Position numbers and translations under genes: made by a program
NCBI GenBank assembly: GCA_021827745.1
Contig: JAKAUI010000014.1
Span: 1 to 52,447 of the forward strand
Source of the DNA: Bacillota bacterium
GTDB lineage: Bacteria; Bacillota; Sulfobacillia; JAJZYS01; JAJZLH01
Length of the DNA stretch: 52,447 nt
Direction: 5' to 3'
Part shown: positions 11,330 through 43,380 of the stretch, piece by piece
Layout of the letters: the number at the start of each line of letters is the position of its first letter
How positions within the stretch are numbered: the stretch's first letter is position 1
Notes under the pieces: generated by a model
The model's input: only the letters and a program-made list of their open reading frames with translations
What the model was told of the DNA's origin: nothing
Database searches by the model: none

Positions 11330-11865
11330 GCCGGTTCCGCCACCGGGACAGCCACCACGAACTTGCCGCGAAACACTTCTTCCTGGGTGGACCGGATGGT
11401 GACCAGGATCACCCACCGCCCCTCTCGTCGTCGAATGACCTCGGCCTTCGCCACCAATACCTCCCCAGGCCGCACCGCCCGCCGAAACTTCATCCGGCAA
11501 AGCCCGGTCTCGCTGCCAGGCGGCACCAGTTCCCGCAACAGCGCCTCGGCCTGGGCGAATAGCGAGTGCGCCGGCAGCCCGTGGTCGAGATCCAAACCGG
11601 CCGGCTCGGTGACCAGTCTTGAGAGCGCGCTCTCGCCCGGCACGATGTCCAGAAGCTCGCCCGCCGCGTTCAGCGGTCTCGGCTCCAGCACCTGCTCCGC
11701 CACCTGCCAGGCTCTGGCCCGCACCTCCGGAATGCCAAGCGCCAGTCGATCCAGGCGGATGGTCTGAACGCTGACCGCCAGGCGGTCGGCCAGGTCTCGG
11801 TCGGTCACGAGAGGGTCGTGTTTCAGGGCCTGCACCAGCTGCTGTCGGCGTTGCTTGAGGTCCAT
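11326..11865 (-). CDS. fapR: Fatty-acid and phospholipid biosynthesis repressor FapR
   Basis: 179 residues. The DeoR-like helix-turn-helix (VTDRDLADRLAVSVQTIRLDRLALGIPEVR) occupies about 20-50 and matches the FapR signature VSVQTIRLDR and IPELRER. The C-terminal half is a hot-dog fold that senses malonyl-CoA (GLPAHSLFAQAEALL, then FRRAVRPGEVLVAKAEV). FapR represses fap-regulon genes and is released by malonyl-CoA. The ATG at 11865 follows GGAGG by six or so bases. As the first gene of the lipid operon it probably regulates itself; see the promoter and operator candidates upstream. Confidence 0.9.
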   Translation of the reverse strand: MDLKQRRQQLVQALKHDPLVTDRDLADRLAVSVQTIRLDRLALGIPEVRARAWQVAEQVLEPRPLNAAGELLDIVPGESALSRLVTEPAGLDLDHGLPAHSLFAQAEALLRELVPPGSETGLCRMKFRRAVRPGEVLVAKAEVIRRREGRWVILVTIRSTQEEVFRGKFVVAVPVAEPA

Positions 11866-11891
11866 GGCGCCCTCCAGCCTGTCAGCACGTC

Positions 11892-11905
11892 TTAGGACCA
11901 ACTAT
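11892..11905 (-). promoter_or_regulatory. Possible FapR operator overlapping the fapR promoter
   Basis: The plus strand reads TTAGGACCAACTAT, an imperfect dyad (TTAG ... CTAT) that resembles the start and end of the Bacillus FapR site (TTAGTACC ... CTAA) but is shorter. It overlaps the predicted -10 of the fapR promoter, where a repressor would block transcription. The match is partial and the assignment tentative. Confidence 0.33.
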
Positions 11906-11930
11906 ACACTGGCCGCTGGTGCCAATTCAA
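11901..11930 (-). promoter_or_regulatory. Sigma-A type promoter of the fapR-plsX-fab operon
   Basis: On the minus strand TTGAAT (11925-11930) and TATAGT (11901-11906) are separated by 18 bases, close to the vegetative consensus. The -10 ends 35 bases before the fapR ATG, and the element lies just past the rpmF terminator hairpin. It is the best promoter in the whole lipid block. Confidence 0.6.
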
Positions 11931-11933
11931 GCG

Positions 11934-11963
11934 AGCGGGCGGACCGAAGATGGCCCGCCCGCT
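11934..11963 (-). terminator. Terminator hairpin after rpmF
   Basis: Bases 11934-11942 (AGCGGGCGG) and 11955-11963 (CCGCCCGCT) form a perfect 9-bp GC stem with a 12-base loop, starting five bases after the rpmF stop. The tract following it on the minus strand (CGCTTGAATT) is only weakly T-rich, so termination may be partial. It separates rpmF from the fapR promoter. Confidence 0.5.
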
Positions 11964-11968
11964 TAGGC

Positions 11969-12145
11969 TCACTCGACGCTGACAGCCGTCCGGCCGGCAT
12001 AGTGGCCGCAGTTCGGGCACACCCGATGGCTCATCTTGGGATGCTTGCACTGCGGGCAGATCGCCAGCTGCAAGGGCTTCAGCTTCCAGTTGGCGCGCCG
12101 CTTGTTCTTCAGCGACTTGGAGCTCTTCTGCCGAGGCTGGGCCAT
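11969..12145 (-). CDS. rpmF: 50S ribosomal protein L32
   Basis: 58-residue L32 of the zinc-binding type. The N terminus MAQPRQKSSKSLKNKRRANWKL is basic, and the C-terminal half carries two CPxC pairs (CPQC and CPNC) that hold zinc; paralogues lacking these occur under zinc limitation. It belongs to the large ribosomal subunit. The ATG at 12145 follows AAAGGA by nine bases and lies one base past the yceD stop, the widely conserved yceD-rpmF pairing. Confidence 0.96.
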   Translation of the reverse strand: MAQPRQKSSKSLKNKRRANWKLKPLQLAICPQCKHPKMSHRVCPNCGHYAGRTAVSVE

Positions 12146-12146
12146 C

Positions 12147-12626
12147 TCAATCGTCCTTTCCAAGCAGATCTCGAAGCTGATCGAAGGGTCCGGGTGGTGC
12201 GGTCTCGGCGCACTGGCAGCGCCCCTCGTTCAGATTCTTCCCGCAGCTGGGGCAGAGTCCCAGGCAGCCCTCAGCGCACAAGACCTTGGCCGGCCAGGAG
12301 AGGATCTCAATCTCCTCGACCAGGGGCGTCAGGTCGACCTCTTGGTCGATCACCTGAAGCCAGGTCTCGCCCTGTCCCAGGTCGGTCGTCAGGGCCTGGC
12401 TCCTGCCGCCGACCGCAACCTCGACCCTGCCCAGGCAGCGGTCGCAGGTGCCCTCGGCCTGCCAGTGCGCCTCGATGGCGACCTGAAGGCCGTCGTCCGC
12501 CTTGCTCAGCGTTCCCTGCACCGAGAAGGGGCCCAGCGCCAGCGGCCAGTCGCTCACCTGCAGGGAAAATGCCTGGTCGGCGCCGACCGGTTGGCGATCC
12601 ATGGCTGCCGTCGAGACACCCAACAT
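12147..12626 (-). CDS. yceD: YceD/DUF177 family protein, probable rRNA-accumulation factor
   Basis: 159 residues with the DUF177 core: GTCDRCLGRVEVAVGG near 60-75 and the C-terminal LCAEGCLGLCPSCGKNLNEGRCQC, which contributes a cluster of cysteines likely to bind metal. The family is linked to 23S rRNA accumulation and sits directly before rpmF in most bacteria, as here (one-base gap). The ATG follows AGGGTGGTG. The precise molecular activity of the family is not established. Confidence 0.88.
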   Translation of the reverse strand: MLGVSTAAMDRQPVGADQAFSLQVSDWPLALGPFSVQGTLSKADDGLQVAIEAHWQAEGTCDRCLGRVEVAVGGRSQALTTDLGQGETWLQVIDQEVDLTPLVEEIEILSWPAKVLCAEGCLGLCPSCGKNLNEGRCQCAETAPPGPFDQLRDLLGKDD

Positions 12627-12653
12627 GCCAGCACCACCCTGGGAGAGCCCATC

Positions 12654-12684
12654 AGTATAGGGCGACCCGCCGGTCTCATGTCAA
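12654..12684 (-). promoter_or_regulatory. Candidate promoter for yceD-rpmF
   Basis: On the minus strand a perfect TTGACA (12679-12684) precedes TATACT (12654-12659). The spacer is 19 bases, longer than the optimum of 17, so it is weaker than the hexamers suggest. It lies in the 99-base gap between coaD and yceD. Confidence 0.45.
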
Positions 12685-12725
12685 CCGGACCGCGGCCGGG
12701 GCCGGATCGGGCCCCGCTCTGGTGC

Positions 12726-13226
12726 TCAGCGCCCGCCTTTCTCCCCGATCCTCCGCGCCCGCTCCTCCAGCGCCAGGGCGACAGCTGGCGGCACCATCTC
12801 GGCCAGGGGCGCGTGCAGGGTCGAGATCTGCTTGACCAGGGTCGAGGACAGGTGAGAGTAGCGGGAGGCGGTCAGCATGAACAGGGTCTCGATCTCACCG
12901 GCCAGCTGGCGGTTCATCAGCGCCATCTGCACCTCGTAGTCGTAGTCCAAGATCGCCCGCAGACCGCGCACGATCACCTGGGCCTCGAGCCGGCGGGCCA
13001 GCTCGACGGTCAGGCCCTCGAACACCATCACATCCACACCGGGGATCTCTTTCGTGGCCTCGATCAACAGCGTCCGCCGCTCCGCTGCGCTGAACAGCGG
13101 CTCCTTCTGGGGATTGGCCAGGACGCCGACCACCACCCGGTCAAACAGGCCTGCCGCCCGGCGGACGATGTCCAGGTGGCCGAAGTGGGGCGGATCGAAG
13201 GTGCCTGGGTAGAGGGCTGTGGTCAG
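12726..13226 (-). CDS. coaD: Phosphopantetheine adenylyltransferase CoaD, likely CTG start
   Basis: 166 residues. CoaD adenylates 4'-phosphopantetheine to dephospho-CoA, the penultimate step of CoA synthesis. The N-terminal ALYPGTFDPPHFGHLDIVRRA carries the TFDPxHxGH nucleotidyltransferase signature, and the ISSTLVKQI-type motif appears as HLSSTLVKQI. No ATG, GTG or TTG lies in frame close to the conserved start. CTG at 13226 does: it follows GGAGG by eight bases and its CTGA overlaps the rsmD stop by four bases, as many neighbours here do with ATGA or GTGA. Longer readings would add unrelated arginine-rich sequence encoded by rsmD. CoaE is encoded at 46.4 kb. Confidence 0.93.
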   Translation of the reverse strand: MTTALYPGTFDPPHFGHLDIVRRAAGLFDRVVVGVLANPQKEPLFSAAERRTLLIEATKEIPGVDVMVFEGLTVELARRLEAQVIVRGLRAILDYDYEVQMALMNRQLAGEIETLFMLTASRYSHLSSTLVKQISTLHAPLAEMVPPAVALALEERARRIGEKGGR

Positions 13227-13798
13227 TTCTCTCGCCTCCGTTGGTAAAACGTGATCAGGTGCGTGCCATAGCGCCGGTGTTCGATCTCGCTCAAGGACAG
13301 CCCTGGCGCCAGGACGGCACGATGCTCGATCACAAGCCAGGCTCCATCCTTGAGCCAGCGATCCCACGGCGCCGACCTAAGCAGGGACTGGGCGTCGTCC
13401 GAGGCGTAGGGCGGGTCAGCCAGGATCAGGTCGAAGGGTCCGGAGCGGCCCAGTCGGCCGGCTGAGGCCTGCACCGACGCTTGGATCACCTCGGTTCGGG
13501 ACTCATCGCTCCCGCCGCCGGCCCTGGCCACCCGATCGCAGTTTGCAGCGCATGTCCTGGCCGCAGCAGGGTCTCGCTCGACGAGCACCACCCGAGCGGC
13601 CCCTCTGCTCAGGGCCTCCAGCCCGAGCGCCCCGCTCCCGGCGTACAGGTCGGCCACCACTGCGCCCGTAAGGTCGATCCGGCTGGTGAGCATGGAGAAC
13701 AGGCTCTCCTTCAGCCGGTCCCCGGTCGGCCGGGTGCCCTGGCCGTCGGGGGTGGCCAGGCGCAGGCCGCGGGCGAATCCGCTGATGATGCGCACCAC
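13223..13798 (-). CDS. rsmD: 16S rRNA (guanine966-N2) methyltransferase RsmD
   Basis: 191 residues, normal for RsmD, which methylates G966 of 16S rRNA. The N terminus VVRIISGFARGLRLATPDG and TRPTGDRLKESLFSML are typical. The SAM-binding motif is VADLYAGSGALGLEALSRGA near 50-70, and the catalytic DPPY appears as LADPPYA. The GTG at 13798 is chosen: AAAGGAG lies about 11 bases upstream. The next GTG (13795) gives the most family-like MRIISG. The four-base overlap with coaD repeats a widespread pairing. Confidence 0.93.
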   Translation of the reverse strand: MVRIISGFARGLRLATPDGQGTRPTGDRLKESLFSMLTSRIDLTGAVVADLYAGSGALGLEALSRGAARVVLVERDPAAARTCAANCDRVARAGGGSDESRTEVIQASVQASAGRLGRSGPFDLILADPPYASDDAQSLLRSAPWDRWLKDGAWLVIEHRAVLAPGLSLSEIEHRRYGTHLITFYQRRREN

Positions 13799-13803
13799 CC
13801 AGG

Positions 13804-14637
13804 TCAGCGCTCCTTTGGGCTGCTCCAGCTGGGGTCCACACAGGGGCGGAGCGTGTCGGCGCGCAGACCGCCACGCAGCGCCTCGAGCGCCACCGCCTCG
13901 CCCGGCGGAATGTTCGCCAGATTGACATTCGGTCCGAAGTGTCGGATCAGCCAATCCTGCTGGCTGCGCTGGGGTGCCTCCCACAGCACCACCTCGGGGT
14001 CGTGGACGCCGTCTAGGATCCCGGCCACCACGTCCTCCTGAATCCCACCCTGGTCGTTGTAGATGCCGACGCTGGTTCCGGACTCCCGGCCCTCGATCGT
14101 CACGTAGGCGGCGCCGGCTGCGACGTCGGCCTCGATCTCCTCATGGATCAGCTGATAGCTCTGCTTCTCGCGGGGGTCTTTCTTCCCGACCTCGGTCAGC
14201 ACGGTCAGGCCGCGCTCCAAGGCCAGGGAGATGGCCTGGCGCCGGGTGGTCGCGGAAAGCGGCACGGTGCCGTCAGAGATCTCCATGGCCGTAAAGCCCA
14301 AGGCGACGCAGCGGTCCAAGAAGGGCTCGAGGGCGTTCTCCCAGACCGCCACCTCCAGGAAGGTGCCGCCAGGGTAGATCGGGATCCCGGCCTTGGTCAG
14401 AAGCCCGATCTTCTCGCGCAAGACCAGTTCCGGATAGAAGTACGACGTGCCGAAGGTCAGCTTCCAGTAGTCGATGTAGGCCGCCCCGGTGCTGAGCACG
14501 TCCGCCGTCGCGTTCACGCCCAGACCCTTGTCCAGGATCATGGTCACTCCCGATCGCCGGGGTTTGGCGCGGCGTCCGTCCAGTGGCGGCGAGATGACTC
14601 CCGCAAATGGATAAAGGGGCTCCGTGGACCAGCTCAC
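13804..14637 (-). CDS. Phosphosulfolactate synthase (ComA/YitD family)
   Basis: 277 residues. The family adds sulfite to phosphoenolpyruvate to give phosphosulfolactate: the first step of coenzyme M synthesis in methanogens and, in Bacillus spores, of sulfolactate. Conserved segments are YIDYWKLTFGTSYF, the IYPGGTFLEVA strand, TAMEISDGTVPL, VLTEVGKKD, GRESGTSVGIYND and the diagnostic HFGPNVNLANIPP near the C terminus. The fold is a TIM barrel. The GTG at 14637 follows GGAGG by six bases; the adjacent TTG is an alternative. It lies 97 bases after hemL and five bases before rsmD. No ComB or ComC homologue is in the window. Confidence 0.85.
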   Translation of the reverse strand: MSWSTEPLYPFAGVISPPLDGRRAKPRRSGVTMILDKGLGVNATADVLSTGAAYIDYWKLTFGTSYFYPELVLREKIGLLTKAGIPIYPGGTFLEVAVWENALEPFLDRCVALGFTAMEISDGTVPLSATTRRQAISLALERGLTVLTEVGKKDPREKQSYQLIHEEIEADVAAGAAYVTIEGRESGTSVGIYNDQGGIQEDVVAGILDGVHDPEVVLWEAPQRSQQDWLIRHFGPNVNLANIPPGEAVALEALRGGLRADTLRPCVDPSWSSPKER

Positions 14638-14734
14638 CAATGGCCTCCTCACGTGGGGCGATCTGTTCGGCTGTGGTTGCGGCTCATTTTGCGCCAAGCG
14701 GCGGCCCGGCACAAGCCCGACCTGCCCTGGCGCC

Positions 14735-16027
14735 CTATCCGCCGGAAAACACCGCTTCTGCAGCCACCAGCGTCCGCTCGCCCTCGCTCTCGCCGTGGGC
14801 CAGCGTCCAGAACCAGGACTCGTAGAAGCTCGGGGCGAGCAGCACGCCTCTTGCCAGCATGCCGGTGAAGAAGCGGGTGAACAGGGCGTGGTCCTGCGCC
14901 TTGGCCTCGATCAGGTTGGAGGGGGCCTGATCTGAGAAGAAGAGGGTCCAGGTGGAGCCAAAGCGGCTTAGGGACACCGGCCAGCCGTGTCGGCGCCCGG
15001 CCGCCAAAAGCCCGTCCGCCAGCCGCTTCGAGCCCCGCTCCAGGCGCTCGTAGACCCCGCCTTCGGCCAGGATCTCAAGCAGGGTGAGGGCGGCGGCCAC
15101 CGACAGGGGGTTTCCGGCGTGGGTGCCGGCCTGGAACATCGGCCCGAGCGGCGTGACGAGCCTCATCAGATCGCGGTGTCCGCCGTAGGCACCAAGCGGC
15201 AGGCCGCCGCCCAGCACCTTGCCGAAGGCGATCAGATCGGGGGCGGGTCCGACCAGGGGATAGGCCGGTCCGAACTGGCCGCGAAAGCCCACGATCACCT
15301 CGTCGTAGGCAATCAGGCAGCCCGCCTCGTCCGCCAACTCCCGCAGCCCCTGCAAGAAGCCATCCTTCGGCCACACCACGCCCATATTGCCGCAGATCGG
15401 CTCGACCAGGATCAGGGCCAGATCCGAGCCACGTCTGGCCACAACCTGGCGGACGGCTGCAAGGTCGTTGAAGGGGACGGATAGGGTGCGCTGGCGGATC
15501 GGGTCGGGAATGCCGCTCGAACCGCCGTCTCCGCTCTGGCTGGCGCCCGATCCGGCCGCCACCAGCGCGCCGTCGAAGTGCCCGTGGTAGTGGCCGTCAA
15601 ACTTCAACACGAGGGCGCGTCCCGTGGCAGCCCTGGCCAGGCGGACGACCGACATCACGGCCTCTGTGCCGGAACTGACGAGCCGCACCTGGTCGGCGCA
15701 CGGAACGGCCTCAACCAGCTGCTCGGCCAGGAGCACCTCGCCCTCATGCGGCGTGCCGAACAAGATCCCGGTCTCAAGCTGGCGGCGAAGGGAGGCCAGC
15801 AGCCGCTCGTTCCCGTGGCCCAGGATGTGCGGGCCGAAGGCGCCCAGGTAGTCGATGTAGGCCTTGCCGTCGGCGTCCCAGACCCAGGCTCCCGAGGCTC
15901 GCTCCAAGAACACTGGTGCCTTGAGCTGGAGCGACTTGAAGCTGCGGGCCGGGCTCATCACGCCACCGGGCACCACCTTCTCGGCTCGCTCGAACAGCTC
16001 CGCCGAGCGCCTGCCGACCTGGCTCAC
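14735..16027 (-). CDS. hemL: Glutamate-1-semialdehyde 2,1-aminomutase
   Basis: 430 residues, PLP enzyme of fold type I. It converts glutamate-1-semialdehyde to 5-aminolevulinate, the C5 entry to tetrapyrroles. Family features are GTEAVMSVVRLARAATGR, FDGHYHGHFDG, the cofactor-binding YDEVIVGFR, and the Schiff-base lysine K270 in IAFGKVLGGGLPLGAYGG. The C-terminal GVLLAPSFYESWF is also typical. The GTG at 16027 overlaps the folE stop (GTGA) with GGAG six bases before it; ATG at 16039 is an alternative. No other heme gene is nearby, so a HemL paralogue with a different job is possible, but the active-site motifs look standard. Confidence 0.9.
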   Translation of the reverse strand: MSQVGRRSAELFERAEKVVPGGVMSPARSFKSLQLKAPVFLERASGAWVWDADGKAYIDYLGAFGPHILGHGNERLLASLRRQLETGILFGTPHEGEVLLAEQLVEAVPCADQVRLVSSGTEAVMSVVRLARAATGRALVLKFDGHYHGHFDGALVAAGSGASQSGDGGSSGIPDPIRQRTLSVPFNDLAAVRQVVARRGSDLALILVEPICGNMGVVWPKDGFLQGLRELADEAGCLIAYDEVIVGFRGQFGPAYPLVGPAPDLIAFGKVLGGGLPLGAYGGHRDLMRLVTPLGPMFQAGTHAGNPLSVAAALTLLEILAEGGVYERLERGSKRLADGLLAAGRRHGWPVSLSRFGSTWTLFFSDQAPSNLIEAKAQDHALFTRFFTGMLARGVLLAPSFYESWFWTLAHGESEGERTLVAAEAVFSGG

Positions 16028-18733: not shown

Positions 18734-19678
18734 ATGTTTCGACTGTTCCCTGACCTGAGCGAGGACCTCTTGCTCAACCTCTTTCACAAGGGCATCCATG
18801 CCCAGTGGTCGTCGCGCGACCTGGACTGGGAGTCGCCCTTGGTCTTCACCGAGGCGCAGTGTCGGTCGCTCGGCCGCATCCTGACGCCTGTGTACCTCGG
18901 CGAGCAGTCGGCGATGCTCGGTGCCGCCGCCATCTTGCCGCAGATGGCCGAGGCCGGCGAGAGCACGGCCCAGGTCTACCTCTGCAGCTTCATGATGGAC
19001 GAGGGGCGCCACTTCGAGGCCCTGACCCGGCTCTATCACCACATGAAGCAGGAGCCGATCCCGATCCGCCAGATGCCGTCGATGCTCAGATACCACCACC
19101 GGCTGCGTCAGGGCGACCGGGTGGACTGGGTCTGGGGCATCCTGATCTCCGACCTGTTCGCCAAGAACTTCTACCAGATGTTCGCCAAGAGCCAGCCCCA
19201 GGCCCTGTTCGGGGACATGTCCCGGCGGGTGCTGCAAGACGAGTCCCGCCACCAAGCCTTCGCCGACCACTACCTGAAGGCGGCGATCAGGCAGTTGCCT
19301 GAAGAGCGGCTGATCGCGCTGCGCATCATGCGCGACGACCTCTTGCGAATCATGGAGACCATGCACGTCCAGCTGCGTGAAGACGCCGACTGCATCGATC
19401 TCGACGGCGCCAGCTTCCTGGAGCACCTAGTGACCGACATCAGCCAGCACGCCGTCAGGATCGGCCTCGATCAGCCGCCGGACGGTCCCGGCCGCAGGCC
19501 GCGGCCAGCGCCGCTGGCCAAGACGGTCGATCTCTCCTCTGCCCGTCCCCACCACCGCCCCAAGTCGAGCGGCCGCCGGCCCCAGATGGCCGCTCCAACC
19601 GAGCCTGCCGAGGACTGCGACACCTGCTATCTGGCTGCGATCTGTCATTCCCGGCTGGCCCGGGCGGTGGCCCGCTAG
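18734..19678 (+). CDS. Ferritin-like (ribonucleotide reductase R2-like) diiron protein
   Basis: 314 residues. The helical part shows a two-fold ligand pattern of R2-like diiron carboxylate proteins: E57 in YLGEQSA, E90-x-x-H93 in MMDEGRHFE, an acidic residue D140 in LISDLF, and E170-x-x-H173 in LQDESRHQAF. Known relatives oxidise organic substrates or radicals, but this one cannot be assigned a reaction. After residue 245 the chain is basic and Pro-rich, then ends in a Cys motif (C295, C298, C304: CDTCYLAAIC) of unknown role. ATG with GGAGG six bases before it. It is convergent with the HMG-CoA reductase gene and shares its stop site. Confidence 0.62.
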   Translation: MFRLFPDLSEDLLLNLFHKGIHAQWSSRDLDWESPLVFTEAQCRSLGRILTPVYLGEQSAMLGAAAILPQMAEAGESTAQVYLCSFMMDEGRHFEALTRLYHHMKQEPIPIRQMPSMLRYHHRLRQGDRVDWVWGILISDLFAKNFYQMFAKSQPQALFGDMSRRVLQDESRHQAFADHYLKAAIRQLPEERLIALRIMRDDLLRIMETMHVQLREDADCIDLDGASFLEHLVTDISQHAVRIGLDQPPDGPGRRPRPAPLAKTVDLSSARPHHRPKSSGRRPQMAAPTEPAEDCDTCYLAAICHSRLARAVAR

Positions 19679-20982
19679 CCGTTCTCGGAAGGCGGAGGGT
19701 CGGATCCGTTTTGCCTGGCGCCGCCGTAGACGGCGTGGGCCTGGGCGAAGTTTTTGCTGCCGTCTGAGGCCATCGATGCCGCCGCCGAGACTTCAAGCGC
19801 CAGCACCGCTGCCGCCACGATCTGGGCGAAGCGGTACACCGAGCCGTCGCCAAGACAGCCCATCATCCGAAGGTGCGCCTGGGCGTGGGGTAGCCCCGTT
19901 CCCCCGCCGACCGTGCCAACCTCGAGCCCCGGCAGGCGGATGGAGACGACGACGCCGTCAGCCACGGCCCGAATCGCCCCATGGGCCATGGAGCTGGTGC
20001 CCACCATGCCCAGGTCCTGACCGGTGGCGGCGAAGATGGCGGCGATCGCCGAGCTGGGCGTAAAGCCGAAGGACTGCATGCCGCTGGCGTGGGCGCCGTG
20101 CAGGCCGACGTGCTCCAGTTGCACCAGGTCCTGGCTCGTCGTCTGCAGATGGCGGCGCAGCGTGCGCTCGCTGAGATGGGCCTCTGCCAGCACCGTCTTG
20201 CCGTGACCCTGCTCGAAGAATGCGGCGGACGGCTTCTTGTCGCCGCCCATGTTCGCCTCGAGCAGCACCTGGCGTGGCTGTTCGCCTCCGGCCTTCAGCC
20301 ACAGCGGCAGGAAGAAGTGCTGGTTGAGGGCGTAGGCGTTCTTGGTCATCATGTTCGGCCCGCAGGCGTCTCCCGTCGTGAAGCCATAGCGCAGGTGGCA
20401 GTCGCCGCCCAGCACATGGGGGGTGATCTCCCACAGCCGTGCCCGCATGGCCACCGGCGCCGCCTGGGCTGGCAGCGCCACACCGCTCCAGTCGCTGGCG
20501 CCGTGCAGCCAGGCTCTGGCCGCCTCGATCTGACCCTGGGCGAACCTGGCGAAGGCCAGGGCATGGACGGCATCGTCGAAGACAAAGCAGGAGTCGCGGG
20601 TGATGCGGTCTGCCAGCAAAAACGTCCGGATCGCACCGTCTCGGGCACAGGCCCGTACCCCGCGCAGCATCGAGGCCGAGAGTCCGCCCTCGCTGTGCGC
20701 CAAGGGTACGTACACCTCGTCCGGCCCTCGTCTCCCCTCTACGACCGCGCCATCCGGGCCGATCGCATAGTCGCCGAGTTCCACGCTGAGCGGCCCGACC
20801 ACCCCGACCGGAAGCAGCACATGCGAGGTCAGGCACTCCTGAAAGTTGGCCAGCACCGCCATCGGCACCGGAGGCGAAAAGAGCAGCGCCTCTTGGGCGC
20901 CGACCAGCGGCCGGATCCGGTCTTGGCGTTCGCTGATGTCGTCGGGTGCGTTCTTGTGCGGCCACACCCGCTGCCTGGACAA
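19675..20982 (-). CDS. Hydroxymethylglutaryl-CoA reductase, class I-like
   Basis: 435 residues. HMG-CoA reductase makes mevalonate from HMG-CoA with NADPH. All four catalytic residues of the class I enzyme can be placed: E98 in HSEGGLSAS, K249 in GGDKKPS, D323 in AATGQDLG and H416 in AQAHAVYG. TTGDACGPNMMTKN replaces the usual TGDAMGMNM, and GTVGGGTGLP is intact. TTG at 20982 is chosen because GGGAG lies eight bases upstream; a GTG and TTG slightly further up lack well-placed sites. It follows ybaK by 74 bases and probably closes the mtnA operon. No other mevalonate gene is in the window. Confidence 0.9.
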   Translation of the reverse strand: MSRQRVWPHKNAPDDISERQDRIRPLVGAQEALLFSPPVPMAVLANFQECLTSHVLLPVGVVGPLSVELGDYAIGPDGAVVEGRRGPDEVYVPLAHSEGGLSASMLRGVRACARDGAIRTFLLADRITRDSCFVFDDAVHALAFARFAQGQIEAARAWLHGASDWSGVALPAQAAPVAMRARLWEITPHVLGGDCHLRYGFTTGDACGPNMMTKNAYALNQHFFLPLWLKAGGEQPRQVLLEANMGGDKKPSAAFFEQGHGKTVLAEAHLSERTLRRHLQTTSQDLVQLEHVGLHGAHASGMQSFGFTPSSAIAAIFAATGQDLGMVGTSSMAHGAIRAVADGVVVSIRLPGLEVGTVGGGTGLPHAQAHLRMMGCLGDGSVYRFAQIVAAAVLALEVSAAASMASDGSKNFAQAHAVYGGARQNGSDPPPSENG

Positions 20983-21056
20983 TCTGATCACTCCCTGCAA
21001 GCGGTCGCGACGGAACTGGCAGGCACACTTTGAGGCCGTCCGCCTGATTCCTGCAC

Positions 21057-21542
21057 TCAGCCTTCGGTGGCCCAGTCCTGTCCGTGGCACAGCTCTTTGA
21101 GTTGATCTGGCGTCAGAGCGAACACGCTGTCCGGCGTGCCGGCGGCTGCCCAGACGACGGGAAACCGGCGCAGGGACGTGTCGACCAAGGTCGGCAGCTG
21201 CATGGCATGACCGAACGGCGCGACGCCGCCGATGGCGGCGCCCGTGGCCCGCCGCACCTCGTCGGCGGAGGCCCGGCGCACCGGCTCCTGCATCTGCTCC
21301 TGGAGCTTGGCCTCATCGACCCGGCGGTCGCCGGCGACCAGGACCATCCACGGCGCGTCAGCGACCATAAAAACCAACGACTTGACGATCGCCCCCAGCT
21401 CGACGCCGATCGCATCGGCCGCCTGCTGGGCAGTGCGAGTTCCGGCCGGGAAGCGGACAACCGTGAGGCTGACGCCGTGCTGGGCCGCGTGGTTTAAGAC
21501 CGCCTGCGACAGGTGGTGCAGGTCCGTTGGCCCAGGGCTCAC
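21057..21542 (-). CDS. YbaK/ProX-type aminoacyl-tRNA deacylase
   Basis: 161 residues of the YbaK/EbsC fold. These proteins hydrolyse mischarged tRNA (for example Cys- or Ala-tRNA-Pro) in trans. Typical segments are VVRFPAGTRTAQQAADAIGVELGAIVKSLVF near 28-58, with the Lys of IVKSLVF that is catalytic in YbaK, MVLVAGDRRVD, and GAAIGGVAPFGH. The GTG start overlaps the aldolase stop (GTGA). The exact tRNA specificity cannot be read from the sequence. Confidence 0.87.
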   Translation of the reverse strand: MSPGPTDLHHLSQAVLNHAAQHGVSLTVVRFPAGTRTAQQAADAIGVELGAIVKSLVFMVADAPWMVLVAGDRRVDEAKLQEQMQEPVRRASADEVRRATGAAIGGVAPFGHAMQLPTLVDTSLRRFPVVWAAAGTPDSVFALTPDQLKELCHGQDWATEG

Positions 21543-29131: not shown

Positions 29132-29476
29132 GGTGGCGCTCCCTTCGAGTTGAGGTCGACTGAGGACGTTTCGGCGCCGTCATTATACCGTGCAGGCTCG
29201 CTCGGCACCTCGCGCTGACGGCATACTGGCGATCGATCTTGGGCATGGCCGTCCGCTGGCGCTGGGTCGGTCTCGGCCCTCCGGTGCGGATGGGCCGCCC
29301 CGCCCACGGTCCGTGGACACCCGTTTCTGGCCGCGGCTTCTCAGATCAGCATCCCCTGGACGGCGGCTCGTGATAGCATGCGAAGGGCGGGCCGGTGGGC
29401 GGATGCCCTCCTCCGGCGTGGCGTGCTGACTTGAAGAGATGCTTGGACCAGACGAGATGCGAGGTGAGCCTCCTCT
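29132..29476. other. 345-base gap with an aconitase -10 element
   Basis: No convincing gene is seen. On the minus strand a perfect TATAAT (29182-29187) lies about 50 bases before the aconitase ATG, making it the likely -10; no good -35 stands 16-18 bases further up. Facing the other way, I see no clear promoter for the glycosyltransferase gene, only its GAGGTGA ribosome site at 29461-29467. A 79-codon plus-strand frame (29190-29429) is Arg-rich and lacks a ribosome site, so it is not called. Confidence 0.5.
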
Positions 29477-32134
29477 TTGCCGACTAGGGCCCTCACCGCC
29501 CAGATCACCCGCTTCATCCTGGTCGGCGCGGCGAACACGCTGATCGACTTTGGGTTGTTCGACCTGCTCAGTGTGCTGCTTAGAGCGCGCTCGGGCCCCA
29601 TGCTCGGTGCGATCAACATCTTTTCGGTGGCGGCGGCGATGCTGTTCAGCTACTGGGCGAACGGGCGGTTCACCTTCGGCGTGCAGGCACGGCCTCGGGC
29701 GTTCTCCCGCTTCGCCGTGATCACCGGCGCCTCTCTGATTTTGAACACCGTCGTGGTGCTCTTTGTGGCCCACATGATCGCGAGCCCCACCTTGTTCGAT
29801 CTGAACGTGGCCAAGGCGTCGGCCGTGGTGCTCTCCGGCACCCTGAACTTCGTAGGCTACCGCTTCTTCGTCTACCGTGAACCAAAGCCGTTGCCCACGG
29901 CTGCGAGAACGATGGGCTCTTTGGCCATCGTCATCCCAGCCTTCAACGAGCAGCACCGACTTCCGCGCACGCTTTCCATCCTCGCCAAGCTCCTGCCGAC
30001 CCTGCCGGTTCCCTACGAGCTGATCATCGTCGACGACGGTTCCACCGATCAGACGGCCAAGATCGTGCGGGCGGCCGCCAAGGGCTGGCCCGAGCTGCGG
30101 CTGGTCTCGCTTCGCCGCAACTACGGCAAGGGACGGGCGGTGCGGGTCGGCATCGGCGCCGCCCGCTCCGACGTGATTTTGTACACCGACGCCGACTACT
30201 CGGTCGACCTTAAACAGTGGGATGTGTTGACCAGCGCCCTCGAGCAGGGGGCGCACCTCGCCATCGGCGTCCGCCCCGACCCTGACGCCGGGCAGGAGGG
30301 TGCGTCCCGACTGCGGCGACTGATGGGCCACTTCTACCGACGGGCGGTGGCCAACCTCTTGCTTCCGGGCTATCCCGATCCGCAGTGCGGCTTCAAGGCG
30401 CTATGGCGGGAGCAGGCCCCGCTCCTCCTGGCCAACGCCGCAGTCGACGGATTCTCCTTTGACGTGGAGTTTCTGATCAAGGCGGAGCGGCACGGCCTTT
30501 CAGTTGCCCAGGTGCCGATCACCTGGGAGCCGCAGCCCGGCTCCACGGTCCGACCGCTGATCCATGCGCCGCGCACCCTGCTGGAGCTGGTCTCGCTGCG
30601 CACCGGCGTGCGCGACATGGCCGGCTTCTTGGCCATCCTGCTCGCCCTGGCCGATGTGCCGCTCCGGCTGTGGAACCTCTGGCTGATCCCGCGCATCGGC
30701 GACGAGTGGGGCGAAATCTTTTTGGCCTGGCGCATCTACCGGGGGCAGGTGTTCCCCTTGACCGACACCGCCCACGACATCGGCGCCCTCTACAACTACC
30801 TCCTGGCCGGACTGTTCCACATCTTCGGACCAAATCTCGACCTGCCCCGGCTGTTCGTCATGCTGCTCAGCGTCATCACCGTCTACCTGACCTTTCTGAT
30901 CGGCCGCATGCTCTTCGGGCGGTGGGTCGGGCTGTTCGCCGCTGGCCTCCTGGCCACATGCGCCGCAGACATCCTGGCCACCCACATGGCCTGGTCGAAC
31001 ACCACCGACCCCTTCTTCGTCACCCTGGCCGCCTATCTGCTGCTGCTGGCGCTGCACCGCGGCCGCTGGTGGTATGCGGCGGCCGGCGTGATGTGGGGGC
31101 TGGCCCTGCAGACCCATGGCACGGTGGCGGCGCTCCTGCCGGCCCCTTTGATCGCCATCGCCCTGCTCGGCGGACGCCGCCGGCTGAAGGACCCCTGGCT
31201 GTACGGCGGCCTTCTCGCCTTTCTCGTCGGCTACGGGAACATGATCGCCTTCAACATCCGCTATCCGTTGGCGTCCTTGCGCTGGGTGGCGATCCACAAC
31301 ACCTACGCCCTCTCCAGCCACCTCACCCTTGCCAGCTACCTGCGGCGACTGGTCGACGTGGCGCAGGAGTTTGTCCGCTCCCTGGCCAGCCAGCCGATGC
31401 TCGGCTATGGCTACCTGCACGGCCCGCCGCCGGCGATGTTCTGGGTGATCGGGCTGCTCCTTCTGGCCGGGCTCGTCATCCTGATCAGAGAGCGCGAGGT
31501 GCTCCTGGCGGCCCTTCTGGTCGTGCCGCTCTTGGCAGACGCCGTGGTCGGCCACAGCTTCTACTTCCCGTCTGACGTCCGCTACATCGCTCCTTTGCTG
31601 CCCTTTGGCTTCCTCGCCATCGCCGTGGCGGCGGTGCGGCTCTGGACGGCCGTCCGGCGCAGACTGGACCGGGGACGAGGCCAGCCGCTTCCGATCGGCT
31701 GGCTGGGACCGGTTTGCGCCACCGCCATGGTGCTTTTGCCGATTCCGGCGCTCTCCGCCTACTATCAGGCCCAGCTGCAGAGCCACAACACCAACGCCCA
31801 GTGGATCGAGGTCGCGACGGTGGTGCACCAGGTGGATCCGGTGGCGGGCGGCCCGGTGGTCCTGGTCGACTCCGAGCTGCCGTTCGGCCGTTATCTGCCG
31901 TTGATCCTCCAGGTTGAGGGCGAGTCCGTGGTCACGATCGGCGACCCCTACGCCAATTTCGACCACGGCACGTTCTCGCTGACCGCCTGGCAGACGGCGA
32001 TCGCCCAGCATGCCGGGGGCTGGGCGCTGTTGACGCCGGAGAACTTTCACACCCTGCGCCCAGAACTGGGCGGGGCCCATGCCAGCTATCGCCGACTCGG
32101 CGACGGCTACTTCGTCCTGGCCCGCATCCCCTGA
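29477..32134 (+). CDS. Triple fusion: GtrA flippase-like, GT2 glycosyltransferase and GT-C glycosyltransferase
   Basis: 885 residues in one frame. Residues 1-138 are a GtrA domain with four membrane helices (ITRFILVGAANTLIDFGLF, the YWANGRFTFG motif, then NFVGYRFFVYR). Residues 148-385 are a GT2 domain like polyprenyl-phosphate mannose/glucose synthase (IVIPAFNEQHRL, IIVDDGSTDQT, the DAD motif YTDADYSV near 237). From about 390 to 885 it is a polytopic GT-C domain of the PMT/ArnT kind, with the acidic DE of RIGDEWGEIF in the first outer loop. The parts would make a lipid-linked sugar, move it across the membrane and transfer it outside. TTG start about nine bases after GAGGTGA. Acceptor and sugar are unknown. 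Confidence 0.88.
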   Translation: MPTRALTAQITRFILVGAANTLIDFGLFDLLSVLLRARSGPMLGAINIFSVAAAMLFSYWANGRFTFGVQARPRAFSRFAVITGASLILNTVVVLFVAHMIASPTLFDLNVAKASAVVLSGTLNFVGYRFFVYREPKPLPTAARTMGSLAIVIPAFNEQHRLPRTLSILAKLLPTLPVPYELIIVDDGSTDQTAKIVRAAAKGWPELRLVSLRRNYGKGRAVRVGIGAARSDVILYTDADYSVDLKQWDVLTSALEQGAHLAIGVRPDPDAGQEGASRLRRLMGHFYRRAVANLLLPGYPDPQCGFKALWREQAPLLLANAAVDGFSFDVEFLIKAERHGLSVAQVPITWEPQPGSTVRPLIHAPRTLLELVSLRTGVRDMAGFLAILLALADVPLRLWNLWLIPRIGDEWGEIFLAWRIYRGQVFPLTDTAHDIGALYNYLLAGLFHIFGPNLDLPRLFVMLLSVITVYLTFLIGRMLFGRWVGLFAAGLLATCAADILATHMAWSNTTDPFFVTLAAYLLLLALHRGRWWYAAAGVMWGLALQTHGTVAALLPAPLIAIALLGGRRRLKDPWLYGGLLAFLVGYGNMIAFNIRYPLASLRWVAIHNTYALSSHLTLASYLRRLVDVAQEFVRSLASQPMLGYGYLHGPPPAMFWVIGLLLLAGLVILIREREVLLAALLVVPLLADAVVGHSFYFPSDVRYIAPLLPFGFLAIAVAAVRLWTAVRRRLDRGRGQPLPIGWLGPVCATAMVLLPIPALSAYYQAQLQSHNTNAQWIEVATVVHQVDPVAGGPVVLVDSELPFGRYLPLILQVEGESVVTIGDPYANFDHGTFSLTAWQTAIAQHAGGWALLTPENFHTLRPELGGAHASYRRLGDGYFVLARIP

Positions 32135-36238: not shown

Positions 36239-36336
36239 GCAGGGTCAGATCGACGGCCCCTTGAATCGGCTAGATCTGCTAATCTGGCTCTAGGGTTGTT
36301 GTGGCTCCGGCTGTGACCCAGGAAGGACGCGTCCAC

Positions 36337-38487
36337 ATGCGCCAATCGATGGTGCGGCTGCTCATTCTTATCGTCATCTTCTGGCCCGCACTTTTTGGCG
36401 CGGTCCCGGCGCGTGCCGAGCAGGTGCGCTCCGGGCACACCGTCGTCATGGGCGCACCCCCGCGCCGCATGAGCCAGCCGGGCGTCCACTACGCCCCCTT
36501 GGCCACCTATCCGGCCATCACCGAGACGGCAGCCGCCCTCATCGTCTTGGTCGGCTATCCCAACCAGCCATCAGGTGCGCTCAACCTGCAGACGGCGACC
36601 AGCCTCTACTTTGGCGCTCAAAACTCGGTTGGCGCCTACTTCCTCGATCAGTCCCGCGGCCTCTTCCGGCTGCGCGGCCAGGTCGTCGGCGGCGCCGGTG
36701 CCAACCAGCCCACGACCGACGTCATCGTCCCCCACTCCATGGCCTACTACCAGAGCCTGGGCGGGAGCCAGGGCGAGCTGGCGGTGATGCGCGACGCCGT
36801 GAGCACGCTGAGCAGCGCCGGCTTCAACTTCGCTCCCTATGAGAACAGTTCGGGCGAGATCGCCCAGCTGGTCATCCTGAGCACGGCACCCGACTCCAGC
36901 AATGCCAGCTCGCCGTTTTACTCGTCTGAGGTGTCCGACCCCGGCATCAGCGCCGGGTCGGCCCCGGTGTTGAACGCAGACCTGGTCTCGCAGAGCGACC
37001 CCTTGGGCATCCTCGCCCATGAGTTCGGCCACATGCTCGGCTTTGTCGACACCTATGACACCAACGTCTTCAACCTGCCGTCGTCTGCCACTGGCTGCGT
37101 GACCGGGGTCTGGGACCTCTACGACCAGGGCGCCTACAACGGCCCGAACCAAGATGGGTCGCAGCCCGCCCCGATCGACCCCTATCAGCTGGCCTGGGCC
37201 GGATGGCTGACGCCGACGCTGATCAGCGCCCCCGGCAACTACACGCTCTCCCCGGTTGAGACCTCTGGCCAGGTCTACGAGATCGCCTTCGCCTCCGCTC
37301 CAGAGGTCTACCTTCTCGAGAATCTGCAGCCGATCGGATACGACAGCGCCCTGCCAGGTTCTGGCCTCCTCGTCTGGCGGATCGACACCCAGGTGGTGGC
37401 CCCGTCTTCGACCTATTGGCAAAACGACGCCATCAACGCCTCAGGGTCGGCCGGCCCGCCCCACCCGGGCATCAGCGTCGTACCGGCCGGCAACCAGCCG
37501 ATCGCCCAGACCTGCGGGTCTGCGTCCGATCCCTTTCCCGGTTCGAACGCCGTGACGTCCTTCTCCGACACCACCACCCCCTCGGCCAGCTTGTTCGGCA
37601 ACCTCCCCTCGAACATCACGCTCTCCTCGATCCAGACCGCCGGCCAGAGTGTCGCGTTCACCCTCTCCTACAGCGCCCAGCCGACCCTCACCGTGTCCGG
37701 TCCGCCCAAGCCCCTGGTCGGTGTCGCCAACACCTACACGGTGCAGGAGATGACCGCCACGGGTACGCTGTCCGGGTCCGGCTCCTTTTCCGCAGCCACA
37801 CCCTGGGGGACGGAGAGCGGAAGCCTGAGCGGAGGCGTAGGCTCCTTCACCGTGACGCCGCAGGCGGCGGCGGCAGGTTCTGTGGCCGTGACCACCTCCA
37901 GCGGCCTGAGCGCTCCGATGCTCCCCGTCAGCTCGGGCACCCTGCCCTATGCCGATGTCGGGTCGAGCTCCTGGGAGGAGCCAGCGGTGGCCTCCCTCTA
38001 TGCCAGGGGCGACTTCGCCTCCATTCCGAACTGGCAGGGTGCGGACTTTCTGCCCAATGAGCCGGTGACCCGGGCCGAGTTCGTGGCCCTGCTCCTGAAC
38101 GTGCTGCAGATCCATGCCACCGCCACATCGCCATTTTCGGACGTCTCCCCCACCAGCTGGTACGCGGGTGCGGTCGGGGAGGCGTACAGCCTGGGTCTGG
38201 TCAACGGCACGTCTTCGACCACGTTTTCGCCAGACGCCACCCTGACCCGGGCTCAACTGGCCGTGCTCCTGGTGCGGGCCTTTTCGCTCAGCGACAGCGG
38301 CGCCCGCTTCAGCTACCAGGATGTCAGCCCGAGCGCCTGGTACTACATGCCCTTGACGCTTGCCTGGCAGGTGGGGTTGCTCAAGGGCGTCACCGCCACT
38401 ACGATGCTTCCTAATGGCACCACCACCCGTGCACAGGTCGCTACGGTCCTGAATCGGGTGCTGACCCTTGGCCTCAGGGCCCGCTGA
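36337..38487 (+). CDS. Secreted M6-like metalloprotease with three SLH domains
   Basis: 716 residues. A signal peptide (MRQSMVRLLILIVIFWPAL, cleavage near VPARA) is followed by an M6/immune-inhibitor-A type zinc protease domain with HEFGH in GILAHEFGHMLGFVDTYD near 230-247. After a Thr/Ser-rich beta-sandwich region, three S-layer homology domains occupy about 540-716 (YADVGSSSWEE, FSDVSPTSWYAG and YQDVSPSAWYYM, each with a TRAE or TRAQ turn). It should sit in the cell wall and cut proteins outside. ATG at 36337 has AGGAAGGA about nine bases upstream. Confidence 0.9.
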   Translation: MRQSMVRLLILIVIFWPALFGAVPARAEQVRSGHTVVMGAPPRRMSQPGVHYAPLATYPAITETAAALIVLVGYPNQPSGALNLQTATSLYFGAQNSVGAYFLDQSRGLFRLRGQVVGGAGANQPTTDVIVPHSMAYYQSLGGSQGELAVMRDAVSTLSSAGFNFAPYENSSGEIAQLVILSTAPDSSNASSPFYSSEVSDPGISAGSAPVLNADLVSQSDPLGILAHEFGHMLGFVDTYDTNVFNLPSSATGCVTGVWDLYDQGAYNGPNQDGSQPAPIDPYQLAWAGWLTPTLISAPGNYTLSPVETSGQVYEIAFASAPEVYLLENLQPIGYDSALPGSGLLVWRIDTQVVAPSSTYWQNDAINASGSAGPPHPGISVVPAGNQPIAQTCGSASDPFPGSNAVTSFSDTTTPSASLFGNLPSNITLSSIQTAGQSVAFTLSYSAQPTLTVSGPPKPLVGVANTYTVQEMTATGTLSGSGSFSAATPWGTESGSLSGGVGSFTVTPQAAAAGSVAVTTSSGLSAPMLPVSSGTLPYADVGSSSWEEPAVASLYARGDFASIPNWQGADFLPNEPVTRAEFVALLLNVLQIHATATSPFSDVSPTSWYAGAVGEAYSLGLVNGTSSTTFSPDATLTRAQLAVLLVRAFSLSDSGARFSYQDVSPSAWYYMPLTLAWQVGLLKGVTATTMLPNGTTTRAQVATVLNRVLTLGLRAR

Positions 38488-40628: not shown

Positions 40629-40714
40629 TGACGGCGAAAGAATTGGCCGCCCTGTGTCGAATCGCTATGGGAGCCCCATAGAGGCCACCGTCATGCCGGC
40701 GGTGAGCCGCCGGC
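40629..40714 (+). promoter_or_regulatory. Structured 5' leader of the Asp-box protein, possible cis-regulatory RNA
   Basis: The leader can fold into a nested stem: TGACGG (40629-40634) with CCGTCA (40688-40693), GGCC (40645-40648) with GGCC (40683-40686), and a perfect CTATGGG/CCCATAG hairpin (40665-40671 with 40675-40681, 3-base loop). Directly after comes an 8-bp GC hairpin with TGAG loop (40695-40702 with 40707-40714). The ribosome site AGGGAGG follows at about 40731. It does not match a riboswitch consensus I know. Pairings are seen; regulation is inference. Confidence 0.4.
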
Positions 40715-40743
40715 GGGATCCACTAGGCGAAGGGAGGCCCTCC

Positions 40744-43380
40744 GTGCGAGCGAAGCTCGTGGTCGGCCTCGCCCTCGGTTGCGTGCTGGCCTCCTCGTGG
40801 TCTCTGCCTGCCTTGGCGGCATCCTCGACCGTGTCCGCCGTCGTCTCTCCCGTTCAGTACGCGACGGCAACCGGCTCCTACACCAGCCAGGCCTTCTGGA
40901 ACGGCACCGCCTACGTTGCCGCCGCCTACAACTACAGCGGCACGACATACGTCCCGATTCGGCTGGTGGCAAACCTGCTCGGCGTCGCCATCGGCTTTCA
41001 GACGCCGAACCAGATCCTGATCACGTCTCCGGGAACGCCCCAGGCGCTGGCTGCGGCGTCAGGTCCAGCCCCCACCTTTGCCGGCACGGCGGCGCTCACC
41101 ATCGTCTCCGACCGCTTTCTGGTGAACGGTGCGGACAAGACACCCACAGGCGACAGCTTCAACAACGGCATCGCCCTGGTTCCGGCCGCCCTCGAGACCC
41201 ACGGCACCACCTACGTGCCGATCCGCCTGGTCGCAAACCTGCTCGGAACCCAGATCTCCTACGCACCAGGGGCGCTGCCCACCATCTCGCTCGGCTCGGT
41301 TGCGCAGCCGGCCGTCTGGACGAATCTGGGCCCCGCTCCGATCCCGGTCGGCACGACCGCTAATGGTGCAACATCGGCTGAGTCGGGCCGCATCGAGGCG
41401 GTGGCGGTCGCGCCATCCGGCGAGATCTACATCGGCAGCGCAAGCGGCGGCGTGTGGGCCTCGACCGACGGCGGCGGCACCTGGACGAACCTCACCCCCA
41501 CCGCCACCGACCTCGCCATCGGCGCGCTGGCCATCGACCCCACCAATCCTGAAGTCATCTACGCCGGCACCGGTGAGAACGACGGCTTTCAGACGTCGAC
41601 CGGACCCACCACCTGCTATGACTGCTTCTATGGAAACGGCATCCTGAAGTCGACGAACGGGGGCCAGACCTGGACGCTGCTCGGACAGAGCGTGTTCAAC
41701 GGCTGGAACCTGGGGTCGATCGCCGTCGACCCCCAAGATCCCTCCGTCCTCTTCGCCGCCGGCAGCCGGGGCCTGTGGGTCTCTCAGGACGGGGGCCTCA
41801 CCTGGTCGCAGCAGATCAAATCGCAGGCCTGGGATATCGTGATCGTCCCTGGGAGTCCCGAAACCCTCTTCGCCGGTGTGAGCGGCGTCGGGATCGAGAC
41901 ATCGACCAACGGCGGAGCAACCTGGACCCCCATGACAAACGGCCTGCCTCCCGCCGGCGTGGATATTGGGTCCACCATGCTCGCCTACGCTCCGAGCAAT
42001 CCCACCACCATGTACGCCTCGATCGCAAACGGCACGACCGGGTCACTCGTCGGACTCTACGTGTCGACTGACGGCGGACAGAGCTGGACCCGAACTTCTG
42101 CGCCCAACTACTTCGCAGAGTCGACGACGCCGCCGCTGCCGTCTCAAGGCAACTACGACAATGCACTGGCGGTGAGCCCGACCAACCCCAACCAGGTCTA
42201 CGCCGGAGGCACCTCGCTCTACGAGAGTCTCACCGGAGGCCAGAGCTGGACGGAGGTCGGAGGGTATGTGAATAACCAGGTCATCCATCCCGACTTCCAT
42301 GCTCTGACCTTCGATCCGTCTGGAAGCCTGTTCATCGGCAACGACGGCGGAATCTGGGAGATCGCAGGCTCGGGCGTTGTTTCCGATCTCAACACCAATC
42401 TCTCCCTGACTCAGTTCTATCAGGGCCTCTCCGTCAGCTCGACCAGTGGGGGCGGCTGGATGGTGCTGGCCGGAAGCCAGGACAATGGCACGATGGCCTA
42501 TTTCTCGGGTCAAGGCTGGCAGTCTGTGGCGGGAGGCGACGGCGGCTGGAATGCGATCGACGGCCAGGGTCAGGACTTCGTCGAAGCGGACGGCTCTATC
42601 TACCTGGGGACGGCTGCTGCGGCCGGTGCGGTGCAGACCAGTGTCACTGTCACACCTCCGTTTGCCACGGTACCTGCCTTCAACCCCGATCTGGCATCTG
42701 TATCGGGCACTGCGTCGACGCTACTCGCCGCTTCGAACAACCTGTGGCTGACCCAAAACGGCGGCACCTCCTGGACCAAGGTCACGTCGGTGCCATCGGG
42801 CTCCGGGTCTGTCAGCGCCATCACCGTGGCCCCGTCTGACCCCACCACCATTTATGCCGGCTGGACCGGCGGACTGATCATGGGCTCCACGGATGGCGGC
42901 CAAAGCTGGAGCGAGGTGGCGGCGGGCACCTGGAACTTCAGCTGTCCCGACACCCAGAGCGGCTACGCCAACTATACTTACGACCAGCTCGACTCGGTGA
43001 ACAGCCTCGCCGTCTCGCCGACCAGCCCGAACACCCTCTACGCCAGCATTGGGGCTGGTGCCCCGCTCAACTATCCCGCCGACTGCGCCCATCTCTTGGC
43101 GCTGACCGTGCCGCCATCCGGGCAGGCAGAGTGGCAGGACATCTCAGGCAACCTGCCGTCTGCGGTGAACGCCATCTTGATCCATGGTGACGCCATCGAC
43201 GTCGCGACCAACGTGGGCGTCTTTACCGCCGCCCTCGGAACATCGTTCTGGTCCCCTCTCGGCAGCGGGCTCCCCTCGGTTCAGGTGATGGACCTGGCGG
43301 CTGTGCCGACTGGGGCCGTTTTGGCTGCGACCCACGGCCTGGGCCTCTGGGAGCTACCCGCCGGAGGTACGGCGCCCTAG
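40744..43380 (+). CDS. Secreted Asp-box beta-propeller protein with two copper-amine-oxidase-N-like repeats
   Basis: 878 residues. The signal peptide is MRAKLVVGLALGCVLASSW followed by SLPALAA. Two repeats of the copper amine oxidase N-terminal-like stalk domain follow, both with the identical TTYVPIRLVANLLG (about 60-75 and 155-170). The remainder carries at least eight Asp boxes of the S-x-D/N-G-G-x-T/S-W type (for example STDGGGTWT, STNGGQTWT, SQDGGLTWS), which build a sialidase/sortilin-like beta-propeller. It could bind or process glycans, but catalytic residues are not identified. GTG at 40744 has AGGGAGG at good spacing. A strong terminator follows. Confidence 0.85.
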   Translation: MRAKLVVGLALGCVLASSWSLPALAASSTVSAVVSPVQYATATGSYTSQAFWNGTAYVAAAYNYSGTTYVPIRLVANLLGVAIGFQTPNQILITSPGTPQALAAASGPAPTFAGTAALTIVSDRFLVNGADKTPTGDSFNNGIALVPAALETHGTTYVPIRLVANLLGTQISYAPGALPTISLGSVAQPAVWTNLGPAPIPVGTTANGATSAESGRIEAVAVAPSGEIYIGSASGGVWASTDGGGTWTNLTPTATDLAIGALAIDPTNPEVIYAGTGENDGFQTSTGPTTCYDCFYGNGILKSTNGGQTWTLLGQSVFNGWNLGSIAVDPQDPSVLFAAGSRGLWVSQDGGLTWSQQIKSQAWDIVIVPGSPETLFAGVSGVGIETSTNGGATWTPMTNGLPPAGVDIGSTMLAYAPSNPTTMYASIANGTTGSLVGLYVSTDGGQSWTRTSAPNYFAESTTPPLPSQGNYDNALAVSPTNPNQVYAGGTSLYESLTGGQSWTEVGGYVNNQVIHPDFHALTFDPSGSLFIGNDGGIWEIAGSGVVSDLNTNLSLTQFYQGLSVSSTSGGGWMVLAGSQDNGTMAYFSGQGWQSVAGGDGGWNAIDGQGQDFVEADGSIYLGTAAAAGAVQTSVTVTPPFATVPAFNPDLASVSGTASTLLAASNNLWLTQNGGTSWTKVTSVPSGSGSVSAITVAPSDPTTIYAGWTGGLIMGSTDGGQSWSEVAAGTWNFSCPDTQSGYANYTYDQLDSVNSLAVSPTSPNTLYASIGAGAPLNYPADCAHLLALTVPPSGQAEWQDISGNLPSAVNAILIHGDAIDVATNVGVFTAALGTSFWSPLGSGLPSVQVMDLAAVPTGAVLAATHGLGLWELPAGGTAP

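Follow-up and report, generated by a model that had tools for sequence, protein, structure and literature searches.

A GtrA-GT2-GT-C fusion protein from Bacillota as a candidate single-chain three-component glycosylation system

A probable fused counterpart of three-component glycosylation systems

In three-component transmembrane glycosylation systems, a GT-A synthase, a GtrA-type putative flippase and a GT-C transferase have been described as separate proteins (PMC8035078, PMC11127046, PMC5836110). The flippase activity of GtrA is unproven even for stand-alone members of the family (PMC5836110). The window analyzed here, a 52,447-nt stretch of a Bacillota genome (contig JAKAUI010000014.1), encodes at 29477-32134 (+) a single chain made of the same three families, with the same inferred order of steps, as the GtrA-GtrB-Gtr, GtcA-CsbB-YfhO, GtcA-GtlA-GtlB and GtsA-GtsB-GtsC systems. 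Whereas the components are separate proteins in every described system that we read, the window carries them in one 885-aa chain with GtrA first. Its GT-C part is of the PMT_2 type, as are those of several three-component systems (PMC8035078).

The preliminary description had proposed that GtrA, GT2 and PMT/ArnT-like domains share one 885-residue polypeptide that begins with GtrA, and this is borne out by Pfam matches, catalytic motifs and recurrence in other genomes. A profile search along the chain recovered all three families above Pfam gathering scores, in the order GtrA, GT2, PMT_2-type GT-C. The GtrA domain (residues 12-132; 29510-29872, +) matches PF04138 (GtrA_DPMS_TM, E 1.2e-12) and contains four hydrophobic segments, with its N and C ends both predicted inside by hydropathy. 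It is followed by a GT2 (GT-A fold) polyprenyl-phosphate glycosyltransferase-like domain at residues about 148-376 (29918-30604, +), recognized by Glycos_transf_2 (PF00535, residues 151-310, E 8.3e-26), by its motifs and by a profile match to 5mlz. The PMT_2-type GT-C domain occupies residues about 378-885 (30608-32131, +) and comprises approximately 9-11 hydrophobic segments and a tail of some 110 aa at the C terminus; the PMT_2 profile (PF13231) aligns at residues 438-584 (E 2.7e-18; 67.1 bits against a cut-off of 26.1). A GT-C fold would fit this profile match and the helix pattern. Both AlphaFold2 models are of low confidence, with a mean pLDDT of 37 for the whole chain and 45 for the GT-C part from only three close input sequences, and are too poor to reveal whether a path connects the domains. 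NCBIfam contained no full match for the window protein, its GT2 hits all lying far below cut-off, and the GT-C part by itself drew no useful match from a PDB sequence search.

The nearest solved structure by profile is the dolichol-phosphate mannose (DPM) synthase of P. furiosus (PDB 5mlz), and the alignment covers its GT2 part as well as its GtrA part. Like the fusion, this enzyme and other bifunctional GT2/GtrA proteins hold GT2 and GtrA in one chain, but the P. furiosus protein has GT2 at its N terminus and GtrA at its C terminus and lacks a GT-C part. The two also differ at the metal site, where DADLQ of the DPM synthase corresponds to DADYS in the window protein. In the DPM synthase motif DADxQ the Q binds metal; its position is taken by S242 in the window protein, a difference that counts against the mechanism proposed below.

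Recurrence of the fusion and selection on its gene

The fusion gene is an intact reading frame of 885 codons with zero internal stops. It begins with a TTG codon, 8 nt downstream of a ribosome-binding site (GAGGTGAG; 29461-29468, +). Two metagenome-assembled genomes of the same genus, filed as Bacillota, encode a complete counterpart, 86% and 78% identical to the window protein, in both cases as a single frame with TTG start and ribosome-binding site unchanged. Beyond the genus, proteins approximately 32-37% identical to the window protein and with the same domain order were found in 15 genomes from ten other genera and three further families of the phylum, so that the full-length copies used here number 18 (11 genera, 4 families). 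When 13 homologs were scanned individually, the three Pfam domains appeared in the same order in all of them.

The three-domain protein is present in 10 of 398 genomes sampled across the phylum. Within the order that contains one of these carriers, 13 of 63 genomes encode a single frame across the three domains, several others have a copy broken by contig ends or frameshifts, and one has GtrA-GT2 only. Among the 154 genomes of the window's own class, the PMT_2 form is confined to the window's genus. No full-length copy was detected in 198 genomes from the phylum of a Cyclobacteriaceae assembly or in 299 genomes from the phylum of a Chromatiales assembly, and none of 72,556 plasmid records covers most of the protein. 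Two variants of the layout were also observed. One copy encodes a 985-aa fusion with extra residues between its GtrA and GT2 parts (L083:877-3831, +), and two others are split into two or three overlapping frames (G477:C1:217974-220479 and G491:C101:4759-7469), which probably reflects sequence errors or decaying genes.

Since the window genome is a fragmented draft assembly of 64 contigs, the joining of adjacent genes by an assembly or sequencing error was considered. We give this reading virtually no weight, because one frame persists in 18 genomes from four families, including some single-contig assemblies (G100, G015), and because purifying selection is seen across all domains. Whole-gene dN/dS values for the three pairs formed by the window genome and its two congeners are 0.12, 0.22 and 0.15, and values per domain fall between 0.10 and 0.21 in GtrA, GT2 and GT-C alike. 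The C-terminal tail is the only looser region, with dN/dS up to 0.41. A frameshift, named at the outset as an observation that would overturn the fusion, was not found, the two congeners keeping the same single frame; recurrence and purifying selection together exclude a frameshift or assembly artifact.

The domain order had also been called unusual. It is not unique to the window genome, given the 18 copies and the recurrence of GtrA-GT2-PMT_2 in distant genomes of the phylum, which the proposed survey of fusion order brought out. The part of the claim that stands is that no description of the three-domain fusion was found in the open-access papers searched, a literature whose incomplete coverage makes such an absence weak evidence.

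Conserved residues, predicted topology and the proposed pathway

Putative catalytic residues are strongly conserved among the fusions. In the GT2 part, D187, the DxD motif (D238-A239-D240), Q303-C304-G305, F328-D329 and E331 are invariant in 18 of 18 sequences, as are R406, D409, E410, E413, D434 and R458 of the GT-C part; the complete GT2 run F328-D-V-E is invariant either in all 18 or in a ten-row alignment. The acidic DE..E motif of the GT-C part (D409-E410-E413; 30701-30715, +) is unchanged in all 18 and lies in a loop with three K/R and six D/E residues. The GT2 part has no hydrophobic segments in the family average, and the charge pattern and hydropathy, from a simple calculation rather than a trained predictor, indicate a cytoplasmic GT2 domain and an outside position for the D409-E410-E413 loop. 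This predicted topology is what the mechanism proposed below needs.

The window protein carries the hallmarks of a three-component system, namely a GT2 domain with DxD, a GtrA family domain, and a GT-C domain with an acidic motif in a predicted outside loop. What sets it apart as a variant of such systems is the single uninterrupted frame, seen in 18 genomes. Judged from sequence, the protein is probably a single-chain three-component (multi-component transmembrane) glycosylation system. Its GT2 domain, in the cytoplasm and flanked by two membrane modules, would transfer a sugar from a nucleotide sugar to polyprenyl phosphate. The N-terminal GtrA module would help the lipid-linked sugar reach the outer leaflet, and the C-terminal PMT_2/GT-C module would use the DE..E motif of its first outside loop to pass the sugar on to an extracytoplasmic acceptor. 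We infer the lipid carrier, a hexose donor, the flipping step, direct hand-over between domains, and the acceptor, which may be a cell-wall polymer or a surface protein. GtrA proteins are thought to work as dimers (PMC8035078), and a 1:1:1 fusion is thus compatible with this only if the whole chain dimerizes.

The chief rival to a one-chain glycosylation system is that the GtrA part is a mere membrane anchor or scaffold for GT2 and that some other flippase moves the lipid-linked sugar, which would make the protein a two-step synthase and transferase with a tether. In the P. furiosus DPM synthase, whose homology to the fusion extends to the GtrA part, the GtrA-homologous domain keeps the GT2 domain at the membrane, and in the fusion the GT2 domain passes directly into the GT-C part without intervening helices of its own; both features suit an anchor. 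However, the helices of the GT-C part could anchor the GT2 domain alone, and purifying selection on GtrA is as strong as on the two enzymes. A further argument against an anchor comes from a PF04138 search of the window's genome (assembly 97% complete), in which the sole GtrA domain found is that of the fusion.

Comparison with Listeria GtcA bears on the same question. In that protein F74, R95, K121 and N132 are important, R95 being essential, and alanine at K121 or N132 impairs glycosylation (PMC7389260). By motif spacing, with no alignment to GtcA itself, F67, K113 and N124 of the fusion appear to keep F74, K121 and N132. The invariance of K113 and N124 in all 25 GtrA rows (18 fusions and seven further GtrA-GT2 proteins) argues against a mere anchor. 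By the same spacing, the R95 position appears as T/S83 in the fusions, which is in favor of an anchor and means that the comparison with GtcA is not clean in that part. On balance we regard the anchor explanation as rather unlikely.

Relatives of the two halves and genomic surroundings

Returning to the one-chain system, relatives of its GtrA-GT2 half occur with other partners. In the window's class, three genomes encode GtrA-GT2-DUF2079 proteins (L041:4-2622, -; L098:3-2576, -; L099:142-2736, -) and three encode GtrA-GT2 alone. The DUF2079 proteins share the order of the GtrA-GT2 half with the window protein (35% identity in L041, where it was measured) and likewise end in a multi-helix membrane part, but one of DUF2079 rather than PMT_2. 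Their presence in genomes of the same class suggests that GtrA-GT2 is a swappable module, and that DUF2079 proteins serve such systems as GT-C transferases with lipid-linked sugars as donors. The tree built from the GtrA-GT2 half has a well-supported branch that separates the six DUF2079 and GtrA-GT2-alone proteins from all PMT_2 forms. Another GtrA-GT2 protein (L084) is nested among the PMT_2 forms and presumably lost its GT-C part. We tentatively suggest a more specific picture, about which we are more doubtful than about the three-component reading itself: a self-contained vectorial enzyme whose single chain would synthesize, flip and consume a polyprenyl-phosphate sugar, with direct hand-over between domains, and in which the GtrA-GT2 module has been fused to different GT-C parts (PMT_2 or DUF2079) according to lineage.

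Further arrangements of these families were seen elsewhere. At the L144 locus, a GtrA-GT2 protein, a GT2-GtrA protein of opposite order and an 898-aa PTPS_related membrane protein are encoded close together (8904-10193, -; 11393-12667, +; 12718-15411, -). One of the GT2 relatives on Deinococcus plasmids is annotated as a dolichyl-phosphate beta-glucosyltransferase, an annotation that hints, as an annotation only, at glucose as the sugar.

The PMT_2 profile scores above cut-off twice in the window's genome, in the fusion and in a stand-alone paralog (L002, G000:C26:2411-4003; counterparts L107 and L108). This protein is without GtrA or GT2, and its GT-C domain is 35% identical to that of the fusion. 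It occurs in each of the genus's three genomes, at 35-37% identity, and in every case D409 is replaced by V, W506 by F and H547 by D, so that the chemistry of this GT-C protein may be altered. A tree of the GT-C half groups the fusion of the genus with the genus's stand-alone paralog, and both branches are long.

The paralog raises the possibility that the GtrA-GT2 half provides outward-facing lipid-linked sugar for general use, with its own GT-C part as one of several users and the paralog sharing the pool. Consistent with this, the paralog is present throughout the genus beside the single GtrA found in the genome, two-domain GtrA-GT2 proteins occur in related genomes, and in Lactococcus one GtrA protein (CflA) serves several GT-A/GT-C pairs (PMC8035078). 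Yet the paralog, without D409 and H547 in three genomes, might not function as an ordinary GT-C enzyme. We consider a shared pool improbable as the main account, and it could hold alongside a one-chain three-component system instead of replacing it.

The surroundings of the gene were evaluated for clues to the acceptor. The upstream neighbor is an aconitase gene and the downstream neighbor a convergent pst (phosphate uptake) cluster; an SLH/M6 protease gene begins 4.2 kb downstream of the fusion, a deacetylase gene 7.6 kb and a BNR/sortilin-like gene 8.5 kb. The location in a region of cell-surface genes reported earlier is correct in so far as these three genes are present, but they form no operon with the fusion. 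Gene order around the fusion is conserved within the genus, and nothing is shared with the neighborhoods of distant carriers, where the gene lies next to unrelated ones, for example those for glutamine synthetase, ketopantoate reductase, a MarR regulator, a DNA methyltransferase and an M24 peptidase. An operon or surface-gene cluster was accordingly ruled out as a clue to the acceptor, and the unrelated neighbors between lineages leave no partner gene evident, so that the gene appears self-contained. The proposal that the neighborhood points to glycosylation of S-layer or secreted proteins is not supported, because the neighbors differ fully in other carriers, and because teichoic acids are the targets of the PMT_2 GT-C enzymes characterized in Gram-positive three-component systems (PMC8035078). 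A cell-wall polymer is therefore at least as likely an acceptor as an S-layer protein.

Three other genes of the window were recorded. The M6-type metalloprotease (36301-38487, +) has three SLH domains, and a single protein at 40654-43380 (+) combines a copper-amine-oxidase N-terminal domain with sortilin/BNR repeats. An ORF of the HMG-CoA reductase family at 19675-21090 (-) hints at a mevalonate route in the window bacterium.

Whether GtrA proteins flip lipid-linked sugars is a long-standing question, and the gene fusion links the GtrA, GT2 and GT-C families functionally. A natural chain that holds synthase, putative flippase and transferase at 1:1:1, encoded in a genome in which the search found no second GtrA, would make the pathway reconstitutable from one polypeptide. 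Each step of a one-chain system could be switched off by point mutation, and a single molecule might then give access to the flipping step, which is poorly understood.
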